A DNA stretch of 64,000 bases from Clostridium sp. (GTDB lineage: Bacteria > Bacillota > Clostridia > Peptostreptococcales > Peptostreptococcaceae), in contig JALFMW010000392.1 of the NCBI GenBank assembly GCA_022782605.1, positions 62,001-126,000 on the forward strand, read 5' to 3'. The notes under the pieces were generated by a model that saw nothing but the letters and a program-made list of their open reading frames with translations, searched no databases and was not told where the DNA came from. Both the position numbers and the translations under genes were made by a program. Of the stretch, positions 6,901-64,000 are shown one piece after another; position 1 is the first letter of the stretch, and the number at the start of each line of letters is the position of its first letter.

Positions 6901-7344
6901 ATGAGTAAATTTAATATTGGTGATAAGGTTATTTCAAAAAGATATCCTTATCTTGGAGAAGAACTTGGTGTTATAGTTGGAATAGATACGAGAGAAAATG
7001 CTTTTGGGAAGTATTTAGTGAAATTTGATTCGTTAGAAATGAGCGAAGGATTGAGTTATAGAGACTTTGTTGATAATATTATTAATAATACCTATTGTAT
7101 TGCTGAACCATATGAAGGATATGCTATATGGTTAGAAGAAGAAGATTTAACAAAAGTTGAAGAAGAATGTGAGGAAGAGTGTGAAGAAGAATGTGAAGAA
7201 GATATAAGAACAAAATTTGAAAGCGTTAGAAAACAGAAGGAAGAAATTATTAAAGAAAAGAGCAAAAAAGTATTGGAGTTAACTTTAGAAATAAAAGAAA
7301 TAGAACATGAAATAGAAAAGATTAAAAAAGAATGGCATTTATAG
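6901..7344 (+). CDS. single SH3-like module plus coiled coil
   Basis: A 147-residue protein with one copy of the module seen twice in the 6097 gene (FNIGDKVIS, GVIVGID, GKYLVKFDS, EPYEGYAIW), an EECEEECEEECEED acidic linker, then a coiled coil closing with the same KKEWHL tail. It is preceded by its own promoter and an AAAGGAG site. It must have arisen with the 6097 gene by duplication, followed by gain or loss of one module. The same type of module also starts the dUTPase at 38228. Function unknown. Confidence 0.6.
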   Translation: MSKFNIGDKVISKRYPYLGEELGVIVGIDTRENAFGKYLVKFDSLEMSEGLSYRDFVDNIINNTYCIAEPYEGYAIWLEEEDLTKVEEECEEECEEECEEDIRTKFESVRKQKEEIIKEKSKKVLELTLEIKEIEHEIEKIKKEWHL

Positions 7345-51704: not shown

Positions 51705-54700
51705 CAATTTTGTTACTAAATTATATTTAAATATAATTCGGGAAAAGTACTTCCAAGAGTGTCTTTACACTCGACCCTTCCTCTCCGACTTCTTTTTTAG
51801 GTTATATCGGATGTTCAGACTATCGCATCTACTTTATTTATAAGTAGCCTTTTCGTTTAGTCGTTCAGCGTGATTAATTAATATATTTCCAATGTAATTT
51901 TTTATTTTCTCCATCTATATTTATAATTCCACAAGTTTCTCTCAAACCCCTACAAACAGCAGAGATATTAGAGCAATTTGTGTTATAGGTTTCTTTTATA
52001 TATTTTTGAGCTTTAGAGATGGAATCAAAAATCATATTTAACTCCTCACAATATACTTTTGAAGTTTTGGCGTAATTATTGCCTTTCATTTTTTTTGATA
52101 AAGACTCTTTTTCTTCTTTACTCATTTCTCTTGCAAACTTTTTAGAAAACTCTTTATCCTCTTTATTTATGTATGACCAGTGTAACTTTATTTTTTCTTT
52201 GTTTATCATAACAACGCCACAATATTGAACTTGCTCATTTAAATTTTTTGATAAATTCTTCATACATAAACCATAATTATCTTTCATATAGGCTTTTGCC
52301 TGCTCTATACTATCAAAAGTTTTATTCAATTCTTTACAATATACTGAAATAGTTTTGTGATTATATTTAAAATCTGGATTTTCTTCTCTAAATCTTTTTA
52401 AGCCTTGTCTAATAATTTCTTTCTCTTCTTCTGTTTTGGGAATTCCATACATAACATGATTTTCACCTTTGTTAAGACCTAAATGAGCTTGTCTATTTTT
52501 CTCTTTAGCTTCTTCAGTATGTTTTTTACCATACATTCCTGTATGATGACATCCTTGAACACCATCTCCACCTTCTGTAGAATTATATCCATTATTATAA
52601 GAATCATACAACTTTATATAATATTGCTCTTTTTCATTTAACTCTTCTAAAGTTTTTATATTCTCTTCTAAAATGGTTACTTCAAAAGCTTCTCATCCCC
52701 ATTTTTTAATTCCATTGGCAAACTTGCTAGTACAACCTTCTTTACAATAGTTTATACCATTTTTCCCAGCTCTTGCTTTTATAGTTCTAATTGTTTGTCC
52801 AATGTAATATTTTTTAATTCCCTCTTCTTCATATTTTTTTCTGTTAAAGTAAACATATATTTTACCATTCATATTATCACCTCCTATATAATTATTATAT
52901 ATTATTTTAAATCATTTGTCAATATATATATTAAAAAATCTTCGCCCTTGTCACCCACCTCTGGGCTTCCAAGTCAATTAGAAAAGGTTTTACTTGGACT
53001 CACACTTAATCCAAGTCATATGGCAGACAGTAGAATATCTGTCCGTCCCATGAACAAAGGTGGAAGTTCTTTGAAAGACCGTCTATACCACCAATAAACA
53101 TATCAAACAAATAGTATCTTAATATACTATCTTTGTTAAAATACTGTTCAAATGAGTCTTTAAAATCGTCATCACTGGCATCAGAAACAAAGTCTACCAG
53201 TCTCTTAACTGGAGCAAAGTTCCATGCATCTTCATTAATTGACGGATATACAACTCTCCATCCTTCATTGTGATATGCAATTTCATTCGGGAATTGAGAA
53301 CCACTTGATTGTGGGTTTGAATAACTAAAGAAAGCACTGGATCCGACATCTGAGTTACTTTCTCCTTCTATACAAAGCATATTTGGATATTGTTTAATAT
53401 CATATCCCATATTCTTTGTTGCATATCTATCTATGTTGAACATATAAGCTCCAAGACTTTCTTGCTCATTATCTACTACATTAATCAGCTCTATAGCATG
53501 TCCATATATCGCAGTTCTTCTATCTGCATTGTCTTTTTGTGCAGGAGTAAAACCTTTGCCATAGACTGCGTCATTTGCTATTTGAGCTAAACAAACATTT
53601 GATGTCATCGAGCTGTCGACGTAATCGCATTTTAGAGTGAATGTAGATTCTGGTAAAATACTTGGACTTAATGCATGAAAAAATTCCTTACCGTTACTAT
53701 CCATTAATACAAACCTGTAATTCTTTCTGCTATATCCCAGTGAAGAAGTACCTTGTAGATAAAAAGGAGTATTACTAGACTCCATGTCGAAAGACTCTCC
53801 ATATAAATTCGTGTCAGGAGACTCAAATTTAACCCTAACATAACTAGGGTTTGTAGTAGAACATTTACTGATATCACCATAAACATATAGTTTAGGGATT
53901 TGAGTTTCATAATTCCATTTATACATTTTTTGCATACTTGCTAAATCTGGTTGATTAGCAATTAAATTTTGAACTACTTCCTCGTGAGTCAATGCTCTTT
54001 CATAGCAAATGAATTTTCTGACTATATTTGTTCCACCACAATATTCTTGATTTAAACCACTAAAATTAATATAAATATAGTCAGTATCAATAGCAAAGTT
54101 TTCTCTCTTAGTACCAGTATCTGATAACATCCAATACCTTGATACTATGCCGTTGACATACATTCTACACATTTTATTTTCTCTATCAATAACAAAGTCT
54201 AGTTGAATCTCTCCACTTTCATAGTCAAGATCAACTATACCCATAGAAGTTTCTGATTCAGATTTTATGTTGGCTTCATTTATGTCGACAAACACTCCTG
54301 TGTATGGTGAGTCATGATCAACATATTCTAGTACTCTAGCCAAGTCGTTTCCACTATGCTCTGGAGTATAAACTATTTCCATAGTGTAACCATTGATGAC
54401 ATTCTCTAAGAAAGGCTTGTATGGAATTCTAACATAAGCATCATTGTTACAAACCAATCCATTATATTTTACCACAACTTCTTCCCCATTTTCGTCTACT
54501 TCGGCAACAGAAGGATTCCAACCATTCGTAGTAAAGTTAAAATCAATTAGTTCTCCATTATGACCATTTCCAGATTTATCTACCCATATTTCTTTATTCT
54601 GTTGTTCATTAGAATAACCGTCGCTATCTAAAAAACAAACTAATCCTTGAGAGACATTTTCTATAGGGACAAATTCTCCTGCAACTATTTCTATATTGAC

Positions 54701-56065: not shown

Positions 56066-56145
56066 ATTCTCTCTCCTTTCAAATTTTTTTAAAATTTTTA
56101 GAATTTTTCATTCGTTAATATGTTAGTTTAAGTATTTTTTAAAAT

Positions 56146-56166
56146 TCCAATTAAAATATAATTGGA
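56146..56166 (-). promoter_or_regulatory. inverted repeat upstream of the CotH gene
   Basis: TCCAATTA and TAATTGGA form a perfect eight-base stem around a five-base loop, directly after a terminator. It lies about 80 bases before the CotH gene start, in the only region where a late promoter could sit. No early-type boxes are present. Confidence 0.4.
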
Positions 56167-56171
56167 TATGT

Positions 56172-56200
56172 AAAAAAGAGAGTAGCGTGAACTACTCCCT
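56172..56200 (-). terminator. hairpin terminator after the metallophosphoesterase gene
   Basis: GAGTAG-TTCACG-CTACTC on the minus strand followed by six U (A-run 56172-56177). It ends the split metallophosphoesterase gene. Confidence 0.7.
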
Positions 56201-56208
56201 TATATATA

Positions 56209-56474
56209 TTATCTAGTTGTTCTATCAGCTCTATCAGATTGTAAGATTTCACATTCATAGATAACTGTTCTATTCATTTTATTTCTTACTTCTTCAAAGT
56301 CTGGGAATACTGGCATTTGAACACCATTAACTTCTTCTGAAGTTTTATTTCCTGTTACTTGATATACTATTACATGAATTCTTTCTTTAGTACATTCGAT
56401 TACTGCATAAGTTGGATTTTTAACTGCATTAGCACCTACTTCTCCATTCATTGAGTAATCTCCATCATCATGCC
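56209..56474 (-). CDS. exon 5 of the metallophosphoesterase gene
   Basis: Begins in mid-codon; with the last exon 4 base it reads WHDDGDYSMNGEVGANAV and ends QSDRADRTTR. An ATG at 56451 can look like a gene start but has no ribosome site. Confidence 0.75.
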
Positions 56475-59400
56475 CAATTAGTTATTAACCCATAGCTTTT
56501 TATCTATGGCTCTGGAGGTTTCCCTCATTTTCATCAATGTGTTAATTCACATTCAGTTTGGCGTACATTTTCACTTTTATTTAAAGTGTCCCATACTCTT
56601 GGGGAGATTATATTTATTCACTCCCTACGCTCTACGGAGGTCTTTAGCCTTTCGCAATCTAAAGACTTTCCTCGGTATTAGCATATTAAAGCCTTCACCG
56701 ATTTTACGGGATTTAACCTTGGCGACATGACCACCAAGGAAGCATATCTGCATATCTATCAAAGTTACCAGTATTTAAAGTTGTTTTTGAATCATCTGTA
56801 AATTCTTTACCTTCTACTGCTGTGCTAGAATATTGTTCTATTTTAGTTAAGTTTGTCTGCTTTCCTGAACATTTGTATCCTGAAGAGTTAAGTGATATAT
56901 ACCTAACACCTTTTGCTTTATCACCATATTTATTTATTCCACTTTCATCTGCTAAAGCGGCTTGTAATTTTGGCGATTGGTTATTATCATAGTAGAAGTT
57001 ATATGGATCTGTTCCATTATAACCTGTTCTTAGAGGTTTTGTGGCACTAAAGCAGTGCTGATGACCTCCAATATGTAGGTCAGCATATTTCTCTATTACA
57101 GGTATAAACTTCTGCATTTTAGCTTGGCGAGTACATGTAAACAAATTGTTATCCATAGGGCTTTTTATCCCTATGCTCTAGGAGTTTCCTCCATTATACC
57201 CAGTCAATTCTGGGCTAGTTCAGCATACATTTTCATCTTCAACTTTACTTGGTCAGATGTCGAACACTCTTGCTGATATTATTGCTCTCTTAACGCTCAA
57301 TCAGTATGCGTTACGGAACTAGGTGATGTCCTAGTTTCCTCGGTGTTGACATGCTATTAAAAATTAATTAAATTCTCCATTATTATATTTTTCTTTAAAT
57401 TCTTCAAACTGTTCTTTGGTATTATCACCATATCCATATGTTTTATGAAAAAGAGTGTGGATTGTCTTGCTCAATGTTATAGCATTGTTTGTGTCTAATC
57501 TTGCTTCTTTATAATTATCATATCCGTCTAAATGATGAACTTCTAATTCACAATTTTTTTCACCACTTATTTGACAAGTATAATTATCTCTTTTTAAGAC
57601 TTCTTCTCTAAATTTTTTATACCCAAATATCCTTCTTTTTACTCTTCTATCTTCTTCTTCAAGTTCTAAATTATAACTAGGATTATTAACTCCTTCATGA
57701 TATTTTCCACTACATGTTTTGTTGCAAAAATGTTTTTTGCTTCTTTCATATTCTTTTTTTGCTAAATGTAACTCTTCCCCACAGTAATCACAATAGCAAA
57801 CAATTCTATTCATAATTTTATATTTGTGATAACACTCTTCTGAACAATAAATCTTATCTTTCCTGTGTGTTTTAAATGTTTGTTTACAACAAGGGCATAT
57901 TTTTTCATATTTCTTTTCTTTTTTAGAACGTCTACAAGAATAGCAGGTATTTTCTCTATTAAAATATGATTTCCTTATTTTAGGAAATCTGAAATTCATT
58001 TTAAGTTTTCCACACTTTGTGCAAATTTTCATAAATATTTTACAATCTTTTTTCTTTAACATTGTTCCACCCCTTCCCTATACCTATATTATATATTATT
58101 TTTAATTGTTTGTCAATAAAGAATTTAATACTTTTAATAGTTTAGTGTTCTCCGATTTTGCTCGATTAAAATTCTAATATTTCTATTAGATTGCCCCTTA
58201 CTCAAGGCATCTGATGTGTCGCCATTATAATCCATTGTGGTGGATTAGCTCCATTTACAATAGGATTTAATACTTCTTCTAAAGCATCTGCTTCTTTCTG
58301 TAAGAATTCATCCCATGAAGCACATTGTCCTAAAGTTGGGTCTTCTGAAAAAGCACCGTCTTTAGCTGTAACGTAATCAAGATCTTCATTTGAGCTGTAG
58401 TTTACAATTAATACGTCATCTATTCTTTGGAAGAAGAAACCATTCCATGCTTTTGTTGCGTCTGATTGTTCATTGCAATAATTTACTTGAAAACCGTTCC
58501 CATACTGCTTGCGATATAAATCATTATTCAATTAGTTATTAACCCATAGCTTTTTATCTATGGCTCTGGAGGTTTCCCTCATTTTCATCGAATGGTCATT
58601 TCCATTCCAGTTTAGCATATCTTTTCATCCCCTAAAGGATGTTGTAGTCTCTTGGGTTTATTATATTCTATTTCTAGTTTCAAAACCTATGCGTTGCGTG
58701 TGACTAAGTTTTTACCCTTAGCCTTCCACTCGGATTAACATGTATAATTAAAATTATTCTAAATATTTCCAATGGTGTCCATTTACACTTTCTTTTTTAC
58801 CCTTACAACAATTACATATAGCTGATTTATTGTCCCCAGTATCTCTACTCGCTTCAGCTAATGAGTTATAAGTTTTATTTAACTCTAAGCAATAAACTTT
58901 TTTCCTATAGTTAGAAGCAGTGTTTGGAATTTCGTTCTTATTATAATCTTCTAAATATATCCAATGATATCCCCCACAAGTTCCTCTTTTTTTACTACAA
59001 CAAGCACTTATTCCAGTATAGGCACATCCAACATATTCACTAGCTTCTGTTAAAGTGTCAAAACTTCTATCTAATTCTACACAATAAACTTTATGACCTA
59101 TTTTATTTATTCTTCCATTACTAATTGAAGTAATCCCTTTTTCTAAATATTCATCATAATACATCCAATGTAATAGAGTACCATTTTCTAGCCTTCCAGC
59201 ATAATTATATTTGTGTTTACAACAAGATAGTATAGAAGTGCTTATAACGCCTGTTTCTTCACTTGCTTCAGCTATAGTATTAAAAACTTTATCTAATTCT
59301 ATACAATATACTTTTCTAGCTACTGGACTATTCTCTCCAATATTAGCTTCTCTTAATCTCTTTTTAGTAGTTTCTCTTATAAAAGTTTTAGCTTTTCCAC

Positions 59401-62400
59401 CCATATCTTTATTATAGCCAAATTCTCTATATTTACTATTAAAGCATAAGATATAATATTGTTCCATTTCATTTAACTTATTTTGAGGACATTCACACAA
59501 TATTATAAAATCAAAATACTGTTCTCCATCTCTGTTCCAAGATTTTTGAAGATGGTCATTATCATGTTTATTATTTCTTAATTCTCTTCTATGTTTTGCC
59601 CACCTTTTATATATGTCTACAGATTGTCCTATGTAAACTTTATTATTCACTTTATTTAATATCATATAAATTCCACATATAACTCTTCTTGCCATTCGTC
59701 TCATCTCCTCTCTATATTAATTATTATACATCACTTTTAATTGTTTGTCAAGAATAATTTTAATTATATTTAGCCTTCCCGTTTTCTACTACAATACACT
59801 TACTATATTACTATAATAAGGGGCAATAAACTTACCTATATTACTTGCAAAAGGAACTGTAAATCTAGCTTCACCTCTAGCAAAGTTAGACCAGTACATT
59901 TCTGGGTTCACGCGTATTCCATTTTGAGTTTCATCAAATATCTTCTATATAGTTCGCTACACTATATACGTTCTCTTATGAACTGCTCCATATTTCTATG
60001 GAAGTTGAGACTATATCACATTCTCCTATAAGGAGAACCCTTCCATTTCGGATGTCAATAGCTTACATCCTACGGCTTTCGCCTAGTCGTTGAAGGTTTT
60101 AATTAATTGCTTGTTTTAAAATATTTTCTATATTATTGAATTCCCAGTAAGGAATTCTTACTAATTTTATATTATTATCTAAACAATATTGGGTTTTTAT
60201 ATTATCTCTTTTTTGAGTTTCTAATAAAACTTGTCCTTTAGTATCGCCAAAACAACCTTTTAAAAAATGTTGCTCTCCATCATATTCAATACACATGTTT
60301 AAGGAAGGAATATAAAAATCAAAAGGTAAAGGTAGTATGTTTCTACATTCTTCAAATCTTTTTTGTTCTACAAATTCTATTTCTAATTGATTTAAGTATT
60401 TTCTTACTTCTTTTTCTCCACTAGACCCTATACAAATAGGACATCTTTGTCCAATTTTAAATTTATCAAAATTCATTGTGAATACATGCCCGTGAGGACA
60501 TTCTAATAATAATTTTTGATGTGCATTTTTATAATTTTCAGATAATAATTTATAACCTTGTTGTTCTATAAAAGCTTTCACTTCTTCAAAAGGCATTCTT
60601 TTTATCTCTGATAAATGTTCGTAATAACAATCTGGACAACCAAATCCTTGTTGAAAATTAGCCCACTGTATAGAATGTTTATGTCCTTTGTTACATATAT
60701 ATTCCATAGGAGTGTGTGCATTTTTATATTCAGTTGCTAATAAAGTCCAACCTTTTTCTGCAAACTTTTCTTTAACATATTCTAATGTAAGTTTTACTGT
60801 TTTTCCTCCACTTTTTCTATTCTTCTTTACATACATACTATCACTTCCTTTCTTTTTTACTAAGCAATTAATTAACTTCCCTGCTGATTGCCTATTCCTT
60901 GACTTTGATTTTATTATAATATATTTTAAATCATTTGTCAAGTAGTGTTTAGGTTTTAACCATGCACCATATTTCTACTTTTTTCTACTTTCGTAACATT
61001 CACGCTTAGGATTTAACCTTACGTTGTAGTGTAGAAATCTTTAAGGGTTTCCAGCAATTAAAAAGGTTTTCTATACTCTTTGCGAATATAGGGAGATGTT
61101 TGTTTCTCCAGTTGAATGCCACATATCAAAGTTTAAAGTTCCATCAGGATTAGCTTCCCAATCCTTCATTATCTTTTCACATACATTTCTATATGCTCTC
61201 ATCTCTGCTTCATTCCAGCCCTGGGGATCGCTTGTCCAAAGAATTCTTAATGTATCACCAGCACTTAAATCCTTATTGAACACATCAAATTCATGAACAC
61301 CACTTCTCATTGATTGTGTACCAACTTGGTATTCATATTTTGCATATTCTAAGTCTTTAACGATAGCTTTACAAATATTAACGTCTATGTTTGGATGATG
61401 CCACTTAGTAACTTTACATTCTTGCATTTGCCAAGAAGTTTCGCCTTTCTTTCTATACCAAACAAATGAAGGTTCTCTAGTAGCTTTTATTTGAAAACAG
61501 AAACATCTAGTTGTATCGTCTTCACCAACAGCTAAATTAAAGTAATTTATGCCTTCGTCATTAAACATATCTTTATAGTTCTCAAACATATTCCAATGAC
61601 CTTCAGTAGTTGATTTAGGGAATTTACCTTCGTGACAATTAGTAAAGTCAACTATTTCAGTCATTCTCCAATCATCAGTACACCATTCGTTTGAAATATA
61701 GTTTGAGAAATCTTTTAATTTGAATCTATTATAAAAGTCTACCTTTCTAAGTCCTTTCTTCTTTGTCATTCCTGATCTATAGAATAAATTACTTGCAGGT
61801 GGAGCAGATGTTAGTCCTCCACCACCCATAAGGTCTATAAAGTTTTCTGTCTTATTAGTACTATATGAACCATCAGGATTCTTTGTAAATGCGTCTGGTG
61901 TTTCTGGTGGAGTATCTCCTGTAGCACTTAAATAAACAGAGAAACCATTATCACTAAATTTCATACCTAATCCAGTGTCTCCCACCATCCATCTTTGGTC
62001 ATAGTGTTCTATAAAGTGTCTACAATCTGTATCCCATCTATTAGCACATTGTCCACCAACTACTAAGAATGAAGTATATGGAGGAATACAACCATGTAGT
62101 GCTAATCCTTCCCATGTAGTATAAGTAGTAGTATCCTTGTACCACAAGTGTAGCCCTTCTAAGTTCTTTTCAGTTGCTGTATTATTGTATAACTCTATAA
62201 AGTTATGGCTTATAGGCATACCAGTTGTAGCAGTACCTGCTCCATACATAGAATTAATTAATAATCCATGAAAATTAGTATTTTGTACAGCAGTTGGAGG
62301 AGTTGCAGTATATGCATTATTTTTTACAGCTTTTAAATTACCGTCATTACCAACAGTAATTCTATAAGTTGTACCAACTTCTTCATCTAAAGTCATATAA

Positions 62401-62924
62401 TTTGTAGTAAGAGTCCCTTCACCTTTTAAATCATTTACAGATACCTTTTTTAAAGATCCATCTTCTCTTAGTATTAAAGCCATATCTGTATCTGTTGAAG
62501 CTAATATTCCTCCTACTTCACTAAAGTCTAATTGATTAGCATTAGAAGTTCCACCTGTAGAAGGAGTTCCACTACCTGTTCCAGCACTAGCTCCACTTCC
62601 TCTAACGGCACTTATAGTCATCTTACCAATTGTTCCATCTGCCTTTATTAATAATAAACTATCTGTTGTAGCACCAGTCATAGCACTTAATCTGGAATAG
62701 TCTATTTTAGTTGGATCACTAGCATCTAATGGTAACACTATCGCTGGATTATTATTGTTACCACTTCCACCACCATAAGTAGCTTTAAGTACGCTGGAAT
62801 TAACAATTTTATTTGTATATCCAGTTTCACTTGAACTATCAGCCACTATAATTAAAAATTTGTCATTATCATTAAGAGAAGTCGCAAGACTTAACTCTGA
62901 CGCTTTTTGGTCATTTACAGCCAT
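56209..62924 (-). CDS. lamin-tail/metallophosphoesterase tail protein, split by four group I introns
   Basis: Joining 61086-62924, 59834-59944, 58205-58528, 56733-57153 and 56209-56474 (minus strand) gives one frame of 986 residues. Residues 1-200 are repeated tail-type modules (LSLATSLNDNDKFLII). A lamin-tail-like domain lies at about 220-370 (HNFIELYNNTATEKNLEGLHLWY), an FN3-like one near 480-560. The metallophosphoesterase follows: SDPQ, HSTGE, GNND (exon 2/3 joint), THQM and GHQH supply the metal ligands, with GE where GD is usual. It may cleave phosphoesters at the cell surface. No part works without splicing. Confidence 0.8.
56475..56732 (-). mobile_element. group I intron 4, 258 bases, no ORF
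   Basis: Exon CCTTGGU pairs with GCCAAGG, with U.G at the splice site; P10 GGCATG with CATGTC; ends AATTG. It joins phase 1 exons. The 3' half (GAGGGAAACCTCC, then GCCATAGATAAAAAGCTATGG) is nearly identical to intron 2, so it is a compact member of the same family without an endonuclease. Confidence 0.85.
56733..57153 (-). CDS. exon 4 of the metallophosphoesterase gene
   Basis: Reads DNNLFTCTRQAKMQ, then the GGHQHCFS metal-binding loop, and ends YADMLPW plus one base. An ATG codon at the intron 3 end (57154-57156) gives a false start. Confidence 0.75.
57364..58062 (-). CDS. intron 3 HNH homing endonuclease
   Basis: A 232-residue protein. Residues 10-130 carry zinc knuckles (CTKCGKL, CYSCRR, CPCCKQTF, CSEECYHKY, CDYCGEEL). 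The HNH motif is near the end: CQISGEKNCELEVHHLDGYD, TNNAITLSKTIHTLFH. An AAGGGGTGG ribosome site and its own promoter precede it. It would cut intron-less copies of the gene at the exon 3/4 junction. Confidence 0.85.
   Translation of the reverse strand: MLKKKDCKIFMKICTKCGKLKMNFRFPKIRKSYFNRENTCYSCRRSKKEKKYEKICPCCKQTFKTHRKDKIYCSEECYHKYKIMNRIVCYCDYCGEELHLAKKEYERSKKHFCNKTCSGKYHEGVNNPSYNLELEEEDRRVKRRIFGYKKFREEVLKRDNYTCQISGEKNCELEVHHLDGYDNYKEARLDTNNAITLSKTIHTLFHKTYGYGDNTKEQFEEFKEKYNNGEFN
58088..58116 (-). promoter_or_regulatory. early-type promoter inside intron 3
   Basis: Minus strand TTGACA (58116-58111), 17-base spacer, TATAAT (58093-58088), 26 bases before the HNH gene. Confidence 0.8.
58205..58528 (-). 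CDS. exon 3 of the metallophosphoesterase gene
   Basis: Reads NNDLYRKQYGNGFQVN to WIIMATHQMP. NND completes the metal-binding GNND loop begun in exon 2. Confidence 0.75.
58754..59695 (-). CDS. intron 2 GIY-YIG homing endonuclease
   Basis: From ATG 59695, nine bases after AGAGGAG (the ATG at 59704 touches that site). The 313-residue product has CGIYMILN, VYIGQS and an EMEQYYI helix, then three NUMOD1-like DNA-binding units (VYCIELDKVFNTIAEASEE, VYCVELDRSFDTLTEASEY, VYCLELNKTYNSLAEASRD), each followed by a Cys-Cys and HW-Y motif. It should cleave the exon 2/3 junction in phages that lack the intron. Confidence 0.85.
   Translation of the reverse strand: MARRVICGIYMILNKVNNKVYIGQSVDIYKRWAKHRRELRNNKHDNDHLQKSWNRDGEQYFDFIILCECPQNKLNEMEQYYILCFNSKYREFGYNKDMGGKAKTFIRETTKKRLREANIGENSPVARKVYCIELDKVFNTIAEASEETGVISTSILSCCKHKYNYAGRLENGTLLHWMYYDEYLEKGITSISNGRINKIGHKVYCVELDRSFDTLTEASEYVGCAYTGISACCSKKRGTCGGYHWIYLEDYNKNEIPNTASNYRKKVYCLELNKTYNSLAEASRDTGDNKSAICNCCKGKKESVNGHHWKYLE
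59723..59751 (-). promoter_or_regulatory. early-type promoter inside intron 2
   Basis: Minus strand TTGACA (59751-59746), 17-base spacer, TATAAT (59728-59723), just before the GIY-YIG gene. Confidence 0.8.
59834..59944 (-). CDS. exon 2 of the metallophosphoesterase gene (37 codons)
   Basis: A 111-base exon reading KIFDETQNGIRVNPEMYW to FASNIG. Its start could also be 59941, since both places follow a G and keep phase 0. Far too short to be noticed by gene finders. Confidence 0.7.
60099..60836 (-). CDS. intron 1 zinc-ribbon plus Vsr-like homing endonuclease
   Basis: I chose ATG 60836, seven bases after AAAGGAAG; the frame is open further up, but the promoter lies there. The 245-residue protein has repeat-like zinc units (CNKGHKHSIQWANFQQGFGCPDC, shortened here: CNKGH, CPDC, CPHGH, CPIC) and a PD-(D/E)XK-type end: ILPLPFDFYIPSLNMCIEYDGEQHF, that is PFDF then IEYDGEQH, and LVRIPYWEF. 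It resembles the free-standing gene at 22913. It should cut at the exon 1/2 junction. Confidence 0.75.
   Translation of the reverse strand: MYVKKNRKSGGKTVKLTLEYVKEKFAEKGWTLLATEYKNAHTPMEYICNKGHKHSIQWANFQQGFGCPDCYYEHLSEIKRMPFEEVKAFIEQQGYKLLSENYKNAHQKLLLECPHGHVFTMNFDKFKIGQRCPICIGSSGEKEVRKYLNQLEIEFVEQKRFEECRNILPLPFDFYIPSLNMCIEYDGEQHFLKGCFGDTKGQVLLETQKRDNIKTQYCLDNNIKLVRIPYWEFNNIENILKQAIN
60913..60941 (-). promoter_or_regulatory. early-type promoter inside intron 1
   Basis: Minus strand TTGACA (60941-60936), 17-base spacer, TATAAT (60918-60913), about 75 bases before the endonuclease start. Confidence 0.8.
61086..62924 (-). CDS. exon 1 of the metallophosphoesterase gene (613 codons)
   Basis: Starts MAVNDQKASELSLA after AAAAGGAGAG. 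It carries the tail-attachment modules, the lamin-tail and FN3-like domains, and the first phosphoesterase motif (ILWTSDPQGWNEAEM). It ends HSTGETNISLY at the splice site; without splicing it would stop five codons later. Confidence 0.8.
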
Positions 62925-62939
62925 ATTTTATCTCTCCTT

Positions 62940-64000
62940 TTAATCTAATATTATACGTCCATCTTTTTCATTTAATAGGACACTTCCATTTTCTAATAGT
63001 AAAGCATATTCTTCTTCAGAAAACTCTAAGATAATTTGTCCACCATTTTCAAGTAGTAAATCTCCTCCATTTTCTAATTTAATAACTGCTTGACCATTTT
63101 CCATTTCTATTAACGAATCTTCTAAATGTAATTTAGCACCATTCTCTAATAAGAATAGTCCTCCATTCTCTAGCATTATTCGTTTAGTTTCTTCTTGGTT
63201 ATAACTATTTTCTAAATGAAGAACTCCACCATTTTCAAGAATGAACATTCCTCCATTTTCAAGTAATAACCTCTTAATTCCTTTAATCTCTTCTTTTGCA
63301 CTTTGTTCTAATAATATCTTACCTCCATTTTCAGTTCTCAAGAAACCTCCATTTTCAAGTAAGATACTTACTACTTTTTGTTCTTCTTCTGCATTTTCTA
63401 GTATGAACCTTCCACCATTTTCTAGTAACATAAAGTTACCATTCTCAAGCATGATACTTGATTTATGTGCTTCAGGTATCTTAATATTTTCTAATAATAA
63501 TTGTCCACCATTTTCAAGTAATAACATACCATCATTTTCTAATTTGATACTTGGTCTGCGTGTTTCAGGTATCCTAATCTTTTCTAATAATAGTTGTCCA
63601 CCATTTTCAAGTAATAACATACCATCATTTTCAAGCATAATACTTGCTTCATGACGTTCAATATTATCTAATAATAAAGCTCCACCATTTTCTAGTAAGA
63701 ATAATCCACCATTTTCCATTAGTAAAGCGTCTTCTACTCTCACATTTGGAGGGACTTCACCATGTAAAGATTCTAAGTAAAATACTCTAGCTTGTAAATC
63801 GTTTATAGTTTTCTGTTGCTTTTGTATGGTCGTTTGTAGGCTTTGAAACATATTTCTAATTTCGTTCATAAAGACATTATCAATATTGTTTACAGCCCCT
63901 TGCAACCCACTAGAAGTCGACTTATCAATGAATATTTCATATTTATCTATATCTTCTGTTGTTGGTGGAGATTCACCTACATAAACTACGTCTTGCCCTC
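62940..64000 (-). CDS. tail protein with LENGG repeats (partial, start outside the window)
   Basis: The frame is open to the window edge, so the N-terminus is missing; at least 352 residues are visible. The visible start (VVYVGESPPTTEDIDKY) leads to a coiled coil (IRNMFQSLQTTIQKQQKTIN) and then about 20 copies of a short unit LENGGxLLLEN, arranged in pairs separated by variable charged linkers. The regular Leu-Glu-Asn-Gly-Gly pattern should form a beta-solenoid or fibre. It lies 15 bases upstream of the metallophosphoesterase gene and is probably co-transcribed as a structural tail protein. Confidence 0.6.
   Translation of the reverse strand, partial: GQDVVYVGESPPTTEDIDKYEIFIDKSTSSGLQGAVNNIDNVFMNEIRNMFQSLQTTIQKQQKTINDLQARVFYLESLHGEVPPNVRVEDALLMENGGLFLLENGGALLLDNIERHEASIMLENDGMLLLENGGQLLLEKIRIPETRRPSIKLENDGMLLLENGGQLLLENIKIPEAHKSSIMLENGNFMLLENGGRFILENAEEEQKVVSILLENGGFLRTENGGKILLEQSAKEEIKGIKRLLLENGGMFILENGGVLHLENSYNQEETKRIMLENGGLFLLENGAKLHLEDSLIEMENGQAVIKLENGGDLLLENGGQIILEFSEEEYALLLENGSVLLNEKDGRIILD
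62960..63740 (-). repeat. LENGG-coding repeats
   Basis: About 20 repeats of a roughly 15-base core coding Leu-Glu-Asn-Gly-Gly, seen on the plus strand as CCACCATTTTC or CCTCCATTTTC. Units at about 63498-63533 and 63594-63629 are nearly identical, a sign of local duplication. Confidence 0.65.

Follow-up and report, generated by a model that had tools for sequence, protein, structure and literature searches.

On the evidence of its sequence, the transcript of a late tail gene in a gut phage is very probably interrupted by four group I ribozymes, with introns 1–3 carrying homing-endonuclease genes. The window, a stretch of 64,000 nucleotides corresponding to bases 62001-126000 of a 165,327-base contig (C388) in an assembly of 403 contigs, holds at 56209-62924 five minus-strand frames which join in phase into a single lamin-tail/metallophosphoesterase protein. 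The reading that these five pieces make up a single gene into which four group I introns have been inserted is supported by uninterrupted homologues, by covariation within the introns, by a covariance model and by a related intron at the same site in another genome.

With the joints placed by homology, the exons measure 1819, 101, 324, 409 and 266 nt and encode a product of 972 amino acids. Exon 1 (61106..62924; this and all other features of the gene lie on the minus strand) specifies the N-terminal region, followed by the lamin-tail and purple-acid-phosphatase N-domains and by the first part of the phosphoesterase, as far as ...HSTG. The remaining exons were delimited by homologue alignment: exon 2 (59834..59934; DETQNGIR...SNIG), exon 3 (58205..58528; NNDLYRK...THQMP), exon 4 (56733..57141; FTCTRQAK...PWW) and exon 5 (56209..56474, including the stop). 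The initial annotation had joined the frames into 986 residues; the in-phase join and the one terminal stop stand, but the product is the shorter one, and exon 2, put there at 37 codons, is 101 nt. Pfam recognises LTD, Pur_ac_phosph_N and a calcineurin-like phosphoesterase in the protein, all weakly and under the curated cut-offs; on the earlier joined form Metallophos scored an E-value of 0.0031, under the family cut-off. A PHROGs search with the joined protein returned no family. The metal-site motifs GD, GNND, H and GHxH are nevertheless all present in one chain. Gene callers give unrelated hypothetical proteins for the pieces and miss exon 2, implying that the tail enzymes of intron-rich phages are under-annotated.

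The continuity of the gene is supported directly by its homologues. At ten loci, drawn from phages, viral contigs and bacterial assemblies and including some near duplicates, the same protein is encoded by one uninterrupted ORF, and the alignment runs without gaps across all four corrected joints. Among them are gp352 of phage G and an 879-residue frame (30% identity) on C147, a contig from the same assembly as C388; an uncultured Mollicutes assembly contributes loci on two of its contigs. A very long protein is encoded next downstream in the window, as it is in phage G, cr109_1 and C147. Scanning viral contigs with a single protein query gave no close relatives, while a query in the form of an alignment did find relatives. 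A match in Bohxovirus PV686213 crosses five short ORFs and was not counted as an intron case, since stop codons are often reassigned in crAss-like phages (PMC7886860). The pieces do appear as separate ORFs, and might in principle be separate genes for separate proteins. The ten loci, with one ORF in the same order, rule this out, exon 2 is so short that it is unlikely to be a gene by itself, and ribozyme cores lie between the pieces, so that the chance of this reading being correct is negligible. The initial annotation had already held that what look like separate ORFs are one gene, and the alignment bears it out.

Homology also fixes the joints, at 61106/59934, 59834/58528, 58205/57141 and 56733/56474, where the protein is cut at TG|D, G|NND, P|F and WW|H, respectively. 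The second and the fourth agree with those proposed initially. The first had been set at 61086/59944, which interrupts the invariant T-G-D-x-x-Q-N motif with ten additional codons; once corrected, this joint allows the cut to be moved by one base with identical mRNA. The third had been set at 58205/57153, which inserts DNNL inside H-x-x-P-F. Relatives of intron 3 end in GATAACAA..TG, placing its 3' end at 57142, and in terminase genes related introns have ends that match its true end, GATAACAATTTG; the correction raises the P1 and P10 pairing there from 6 to 10 bp. As initially stated, every one of the four introns ends in G.

The four introns are of two ribozyme types, intron 1 of the type recognised by Rfam and introns 2–4 of a second. 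At the gathering level no intron was found by Rfam in the whole window, nor did a search of 56100-61300 in E-value mode find any. This probably reflects long ORFs and ribozyme types outside the seed. In a search of the whole assembly the 3' half of intron 1 scored 35.9 bits (E 2.5e-7) against RF00028, the family cut-off of 50 not being reached. Intron 1 (59935..61105; 1171 nt) lies in codon 607, within the T-G-D motif. It is about 80% identical, in blocks, to a 353-nt intron of L021, a related gene from a different genome within the genus; that intron itself reaches 93.8 bits against Rfam Intron_gpI (E 1.1e-23). In the core of intron 1 all eight pairs of P3 and all five of P7 are formed. Seven further group I introns above the Rfam cut-off lie elsewhere in the same assembly, on C387, C12, C133, C233, C309, C394 and C105.

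Intron 2 (58529..59833; 1305 nt, in the GNND motif), intron 3 (57142..58204; 1063 nt, in H-x-x-P|F) and intron 4 (56475..56732; 258 nt) gave no match to RF00028. Intron 4 folds with a z-score of -4.58 and is locally 71-84% identical to sequences that are introns, or resemble them, in phages of Clostridioides, Staphylococcus and Bacillus and in crAss-like phages; its last 101 nt are 90% identical to those of intron 2. The assignment of these introns to group I is supported directly by covariation of their cores. Seven sequences, introns 2, 3 and 4 with four phage relatives, were aligned after their cores had been cut by hand, using a structure drawn from intron 4. Over 35 pairs, 95% of cells are paired, and 24 of the 35 pairs show changes on both sides, against 12.2 in shuffled and 2-8 in slid versions of the alignment. 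P3 and P7 are among the covarying helices, with P7 changing for example from GCAUA/UAUGC to GCGUA/UACGC. Despite their differing sequences, introns 2, 3 and 4 all have a completely paired P3 (7/7 bp in intron 2), while swapping partners among the three loses two to three of six pairs.

A covariance model built from this alignment, R1, scores 115-210 bits on the training introns 2–4 (129.8 for intron 2 and 115.5 for intron 3), and phage loci not used in training score 75-171 bits. Among the loci outside the training set are two introns of AR9 gyrA, at 88.3 and 84.4 bits; the record annotation of this gene, joined from three pieces, is the sole basis for AR9 splicing. Over the whole of C388, R1 finds introns 2, 3 and 4 only.

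Each ribozyme would excise itself by two guanosine-initiated transesterifications, its internal guide sequence forming P1 with the last bases of the exon before it and P10 with the first bases of the exon after it. This pairing is strongest in intron 4, with 7 bp of P1 and 8 bp of P10 (15 bp; p=0.0004), followed by intron 3 with 5 bp of each (10 bp; p 0.0098). In intron 2 (8 bp, of which 5 in P10; p 0.19) and intron 1 (7 bp, of which 3 in P10; p 0.10) it is no better than chance, and the joints of these two introns therefore rest on protein homology. The 5' exon end of group I introns is usually a U in a U.G pair. A U opposite G in P1, initially claimed for every 5' site, is seen in introns 2–4 but not in intron 1, where at the joint required by homology the terminal G of the exon end GGAG is paired to the C of CUCC. 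The P1 first assigned to intron 1, CUAUAU/GUAUAG, follows the GGAG/CUCC hairpin, in the position of the second hairpin of the L021 relative, and by this comparison is most likely P2. For two introns of the Rfam type, at 61105 in the window and near 6904 in locus L049, the last base of the upstream exon seems to be G where U is usual; the L049 intron is the one at the GHxH site.

The unusual 5' splice site of intron 1 could be taken as a sign that the gene is truly broken. The insertions would then no longer splice, and the only product would be an N-terminal lamin-tail protein of 617 residues, where translation of the unspliced message ends, without a working phosphoesterase. The endonuclease of a neighbouring intron, described below, is itself interrupted by a stop. 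Such decay is however very improbable, given that every exon frame is open, that conserved motifs are kept across each joint, that P3 and P7 are fully paired in all four introns and that the endonuclease ORFs of introns 1–3 are open.

If the introns do splice, they may do so in more than one way. Intron retention or exon skipping would yield more than one tail protein, by analogy with Twort orf142 and SIOphi, and exon skipping is documented for multi-intron phage genes (PMC11878797, PMC10136302). The frame is kept if exon 3 (324 nt), or exons 2–4 together, are skipped, and the close similarity of introns 2 and 4 at their 3' ends means that splice sites could be confused. On the other hand, the pairing of intron 2 with intron 4 would skip exons 3–4, which, like skipping of exon 2, exon 4 or exons 2–3, shifts the frame and brings an early end, while loss of exon 3 removes catalytic motifs. 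Regulated or alternative splicing on this pattern seems rather unlikely. A more elaborate version is distinctly improbable: splicing would act as a switch between the unspliced 617-residue lamin-tail protein without the enzyme and the spliced full phosphoesterase, while early nucleases hit co-infecting phages at metal-site codons.

On the favoured reading of four self-splicing introns in a single gene, the mobility of introns 1–3 would be provided by endonucleases encoded in peripheral loops, intron 4 having no ORF. The ORF of intron 1 (60099..60836) lies in the P6 loop and has CapR/DUF4379 zinc domains of the Vsr-like homing endonuclease family (Pfam CapR 1.1e-8; phrog_559 7.4e-66). The P5 loops of introns 2 and 3 hold a GIY-YIG ORF (58754..59704; PF01541 7.2e-13; phrog_314 6.2e-34) and an HNH ORF (57364..58062; PF13391 3.3e-5; phrog_1271 1.8e-22), respectively. 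Apparently free-standing GIY-YIG and Vsr-like endonuclease genes are also seen on the same contig (16704-17624, 22913-24040, 2940-3644 and 37826-38161), and at 16536-17687 of L027.

Upstream of each of the three intron ORFs is an exact TTGACA-N17-TATAAT promoter on the minus strand, at 60913..60941, 59723..59751 and 58088..58116, respectively. A fourth (52894-52922, minus strand) belongs to the endonuclease of an intron in the adjacent cotH-like gene. The window has 25 such exact sites, against an expectation of about two even if one mismatch is tolerated. The plus strand holds 21 of the 25, at 2112-41456, and the only exact minus-strand sites are the four that stand one before each intron endonuclease ORF. 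Across the contig, which is laid out as early-looking blocks and a minus-strand late block, there are about 40 exact, near-uniform promoters of this early type (TTGACAAAYRATTWAAA...TATAAT), mostly before genes of the early side. In the remainder of the late block are four more exact sites, one upstream of a free-standing endonuclease. The intron endonuclease of locus L054 likewise has an exact promoter, and that of L049 is without one. Since each intron ORF stands behind its own copy of an early-type promoter, the intron nucleases are probably made early in infection, apart from their late host gene, and they would then copy the introns into intron-less relatives; empty sites exist at the ten uninterrupted loci. 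The late block upstream of the window encodes a 2029-residue protein and other tail-like proteins; the former looks like a tape measure in the authors' reading. Just upstream of the split gene, at 62940-63905, is a gene for an LLENGG-type repeat protein.

The insertions fall in codons of the GD, GNND and HxxPF motifs or of a conserved WW, where the target DNA varies least. Related genes have introns elsewhere, near the SDQQ motif in L054, at GHxH in L049 and L053, and at GNND in L021, so that with the window's four there are six insertion sites in total, five of them in phosphoesterase motifs. At GNND the very same base (GGT|AAT) is occupied by an intron of the second ribozyme type in the window (58529-59833) and by one of the Rfam type in L021 (4591-4943), one target having been taken by two ribozyme lineages. 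The tail gene is a clear case of repeated invasion, and its six sites and shared base would allow target choice, collaborative homing and the timing of the nucleases to be put to the test within a single gene.

The fifth intron of the window (51705..53008, minus strand; 1304 nt) is that in the adjacent CotH kinase-like/leucine-rich gene, which joined at 53009/51704 gives a frame of 2820 amino acids with no internal stop. It had no match with RF00028 or R1, and was recognised by the reading frame, by P1 and P10 pairings read by eye and by a site in common with L021, where a related intron and the start of a homing endonuclease gene are found. Its GIY-YIG/NUMOD endonuclease ORF is broken by an in-frame TGA where tryptophan is expected (KKWG*EAF). 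The cotH-like gene of L021 seems to be split at three places, of which one is common with the window.

Group I introns in phage genes are already known, as are several per gene, a gene in five pieces and early promoters before intron endonucleases. What is new is a dense case with exactly mapped joints, in which splicing is predicted from sequence. The initial annotation's description of four introns in one phage structural gene as dense was fair, but four interruptions in one such gene had already been published. In the zeta-group crAss-like phage OLRF01000054, reported in 2021, the major capsid gene is in five pieces, and three of the four stretches between them carry domains characteristic of group I introns (PMC7886860). 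The two cases share a structural gene in five pieces; unlike the capsid gene of the crAss-like phage, the window gene encodes a tail phosphoesterase and has a ribozyme core in all four interruptions. Staphylococcus phage Twort orf142 has three group I introns and exon skipping (Landthaler and Shub 1999, as summarised in PMC10136302 and PMC11878797). Like the window gene it is a tail gene that holds multiple group I introns, among them two of close similarity, and that includes a short exon; it differs in having three introns, in the experimental basis of its splicing and exon skipping, and in the length of the short exon (23 nt, against 101 nt in the window). SIOphi and other Bastillevirinae have up to three group I introns per gene (PMC11878797), and share with the window HNH, GIY-YIG and Vsr-like endonucleases and ribozyme types poorly reached by current models. 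Their host genes are instead those for polymerase, terminase, thymidylate synthase and reductase, and splicing, predicted here, is demonstrated there.

The endonucleases also have precedents. In Herelleviridae, late-gene intron endonucleases lie behind early sigma-70 promoters (PMC10383478), an arrangement that the window appears to share, whereas those of T4 use middle or late promoters (PMC2988022). CapR/Vsr-like homing endonucleases have been described in group II introns of phages, most of their homologues lying in group I introns (PMC12350094); the intron 1 ORF with its CapR zinc domains is apparently a member of that broad family, and the intron that hosts it is of group I and interrupts a tail gene.
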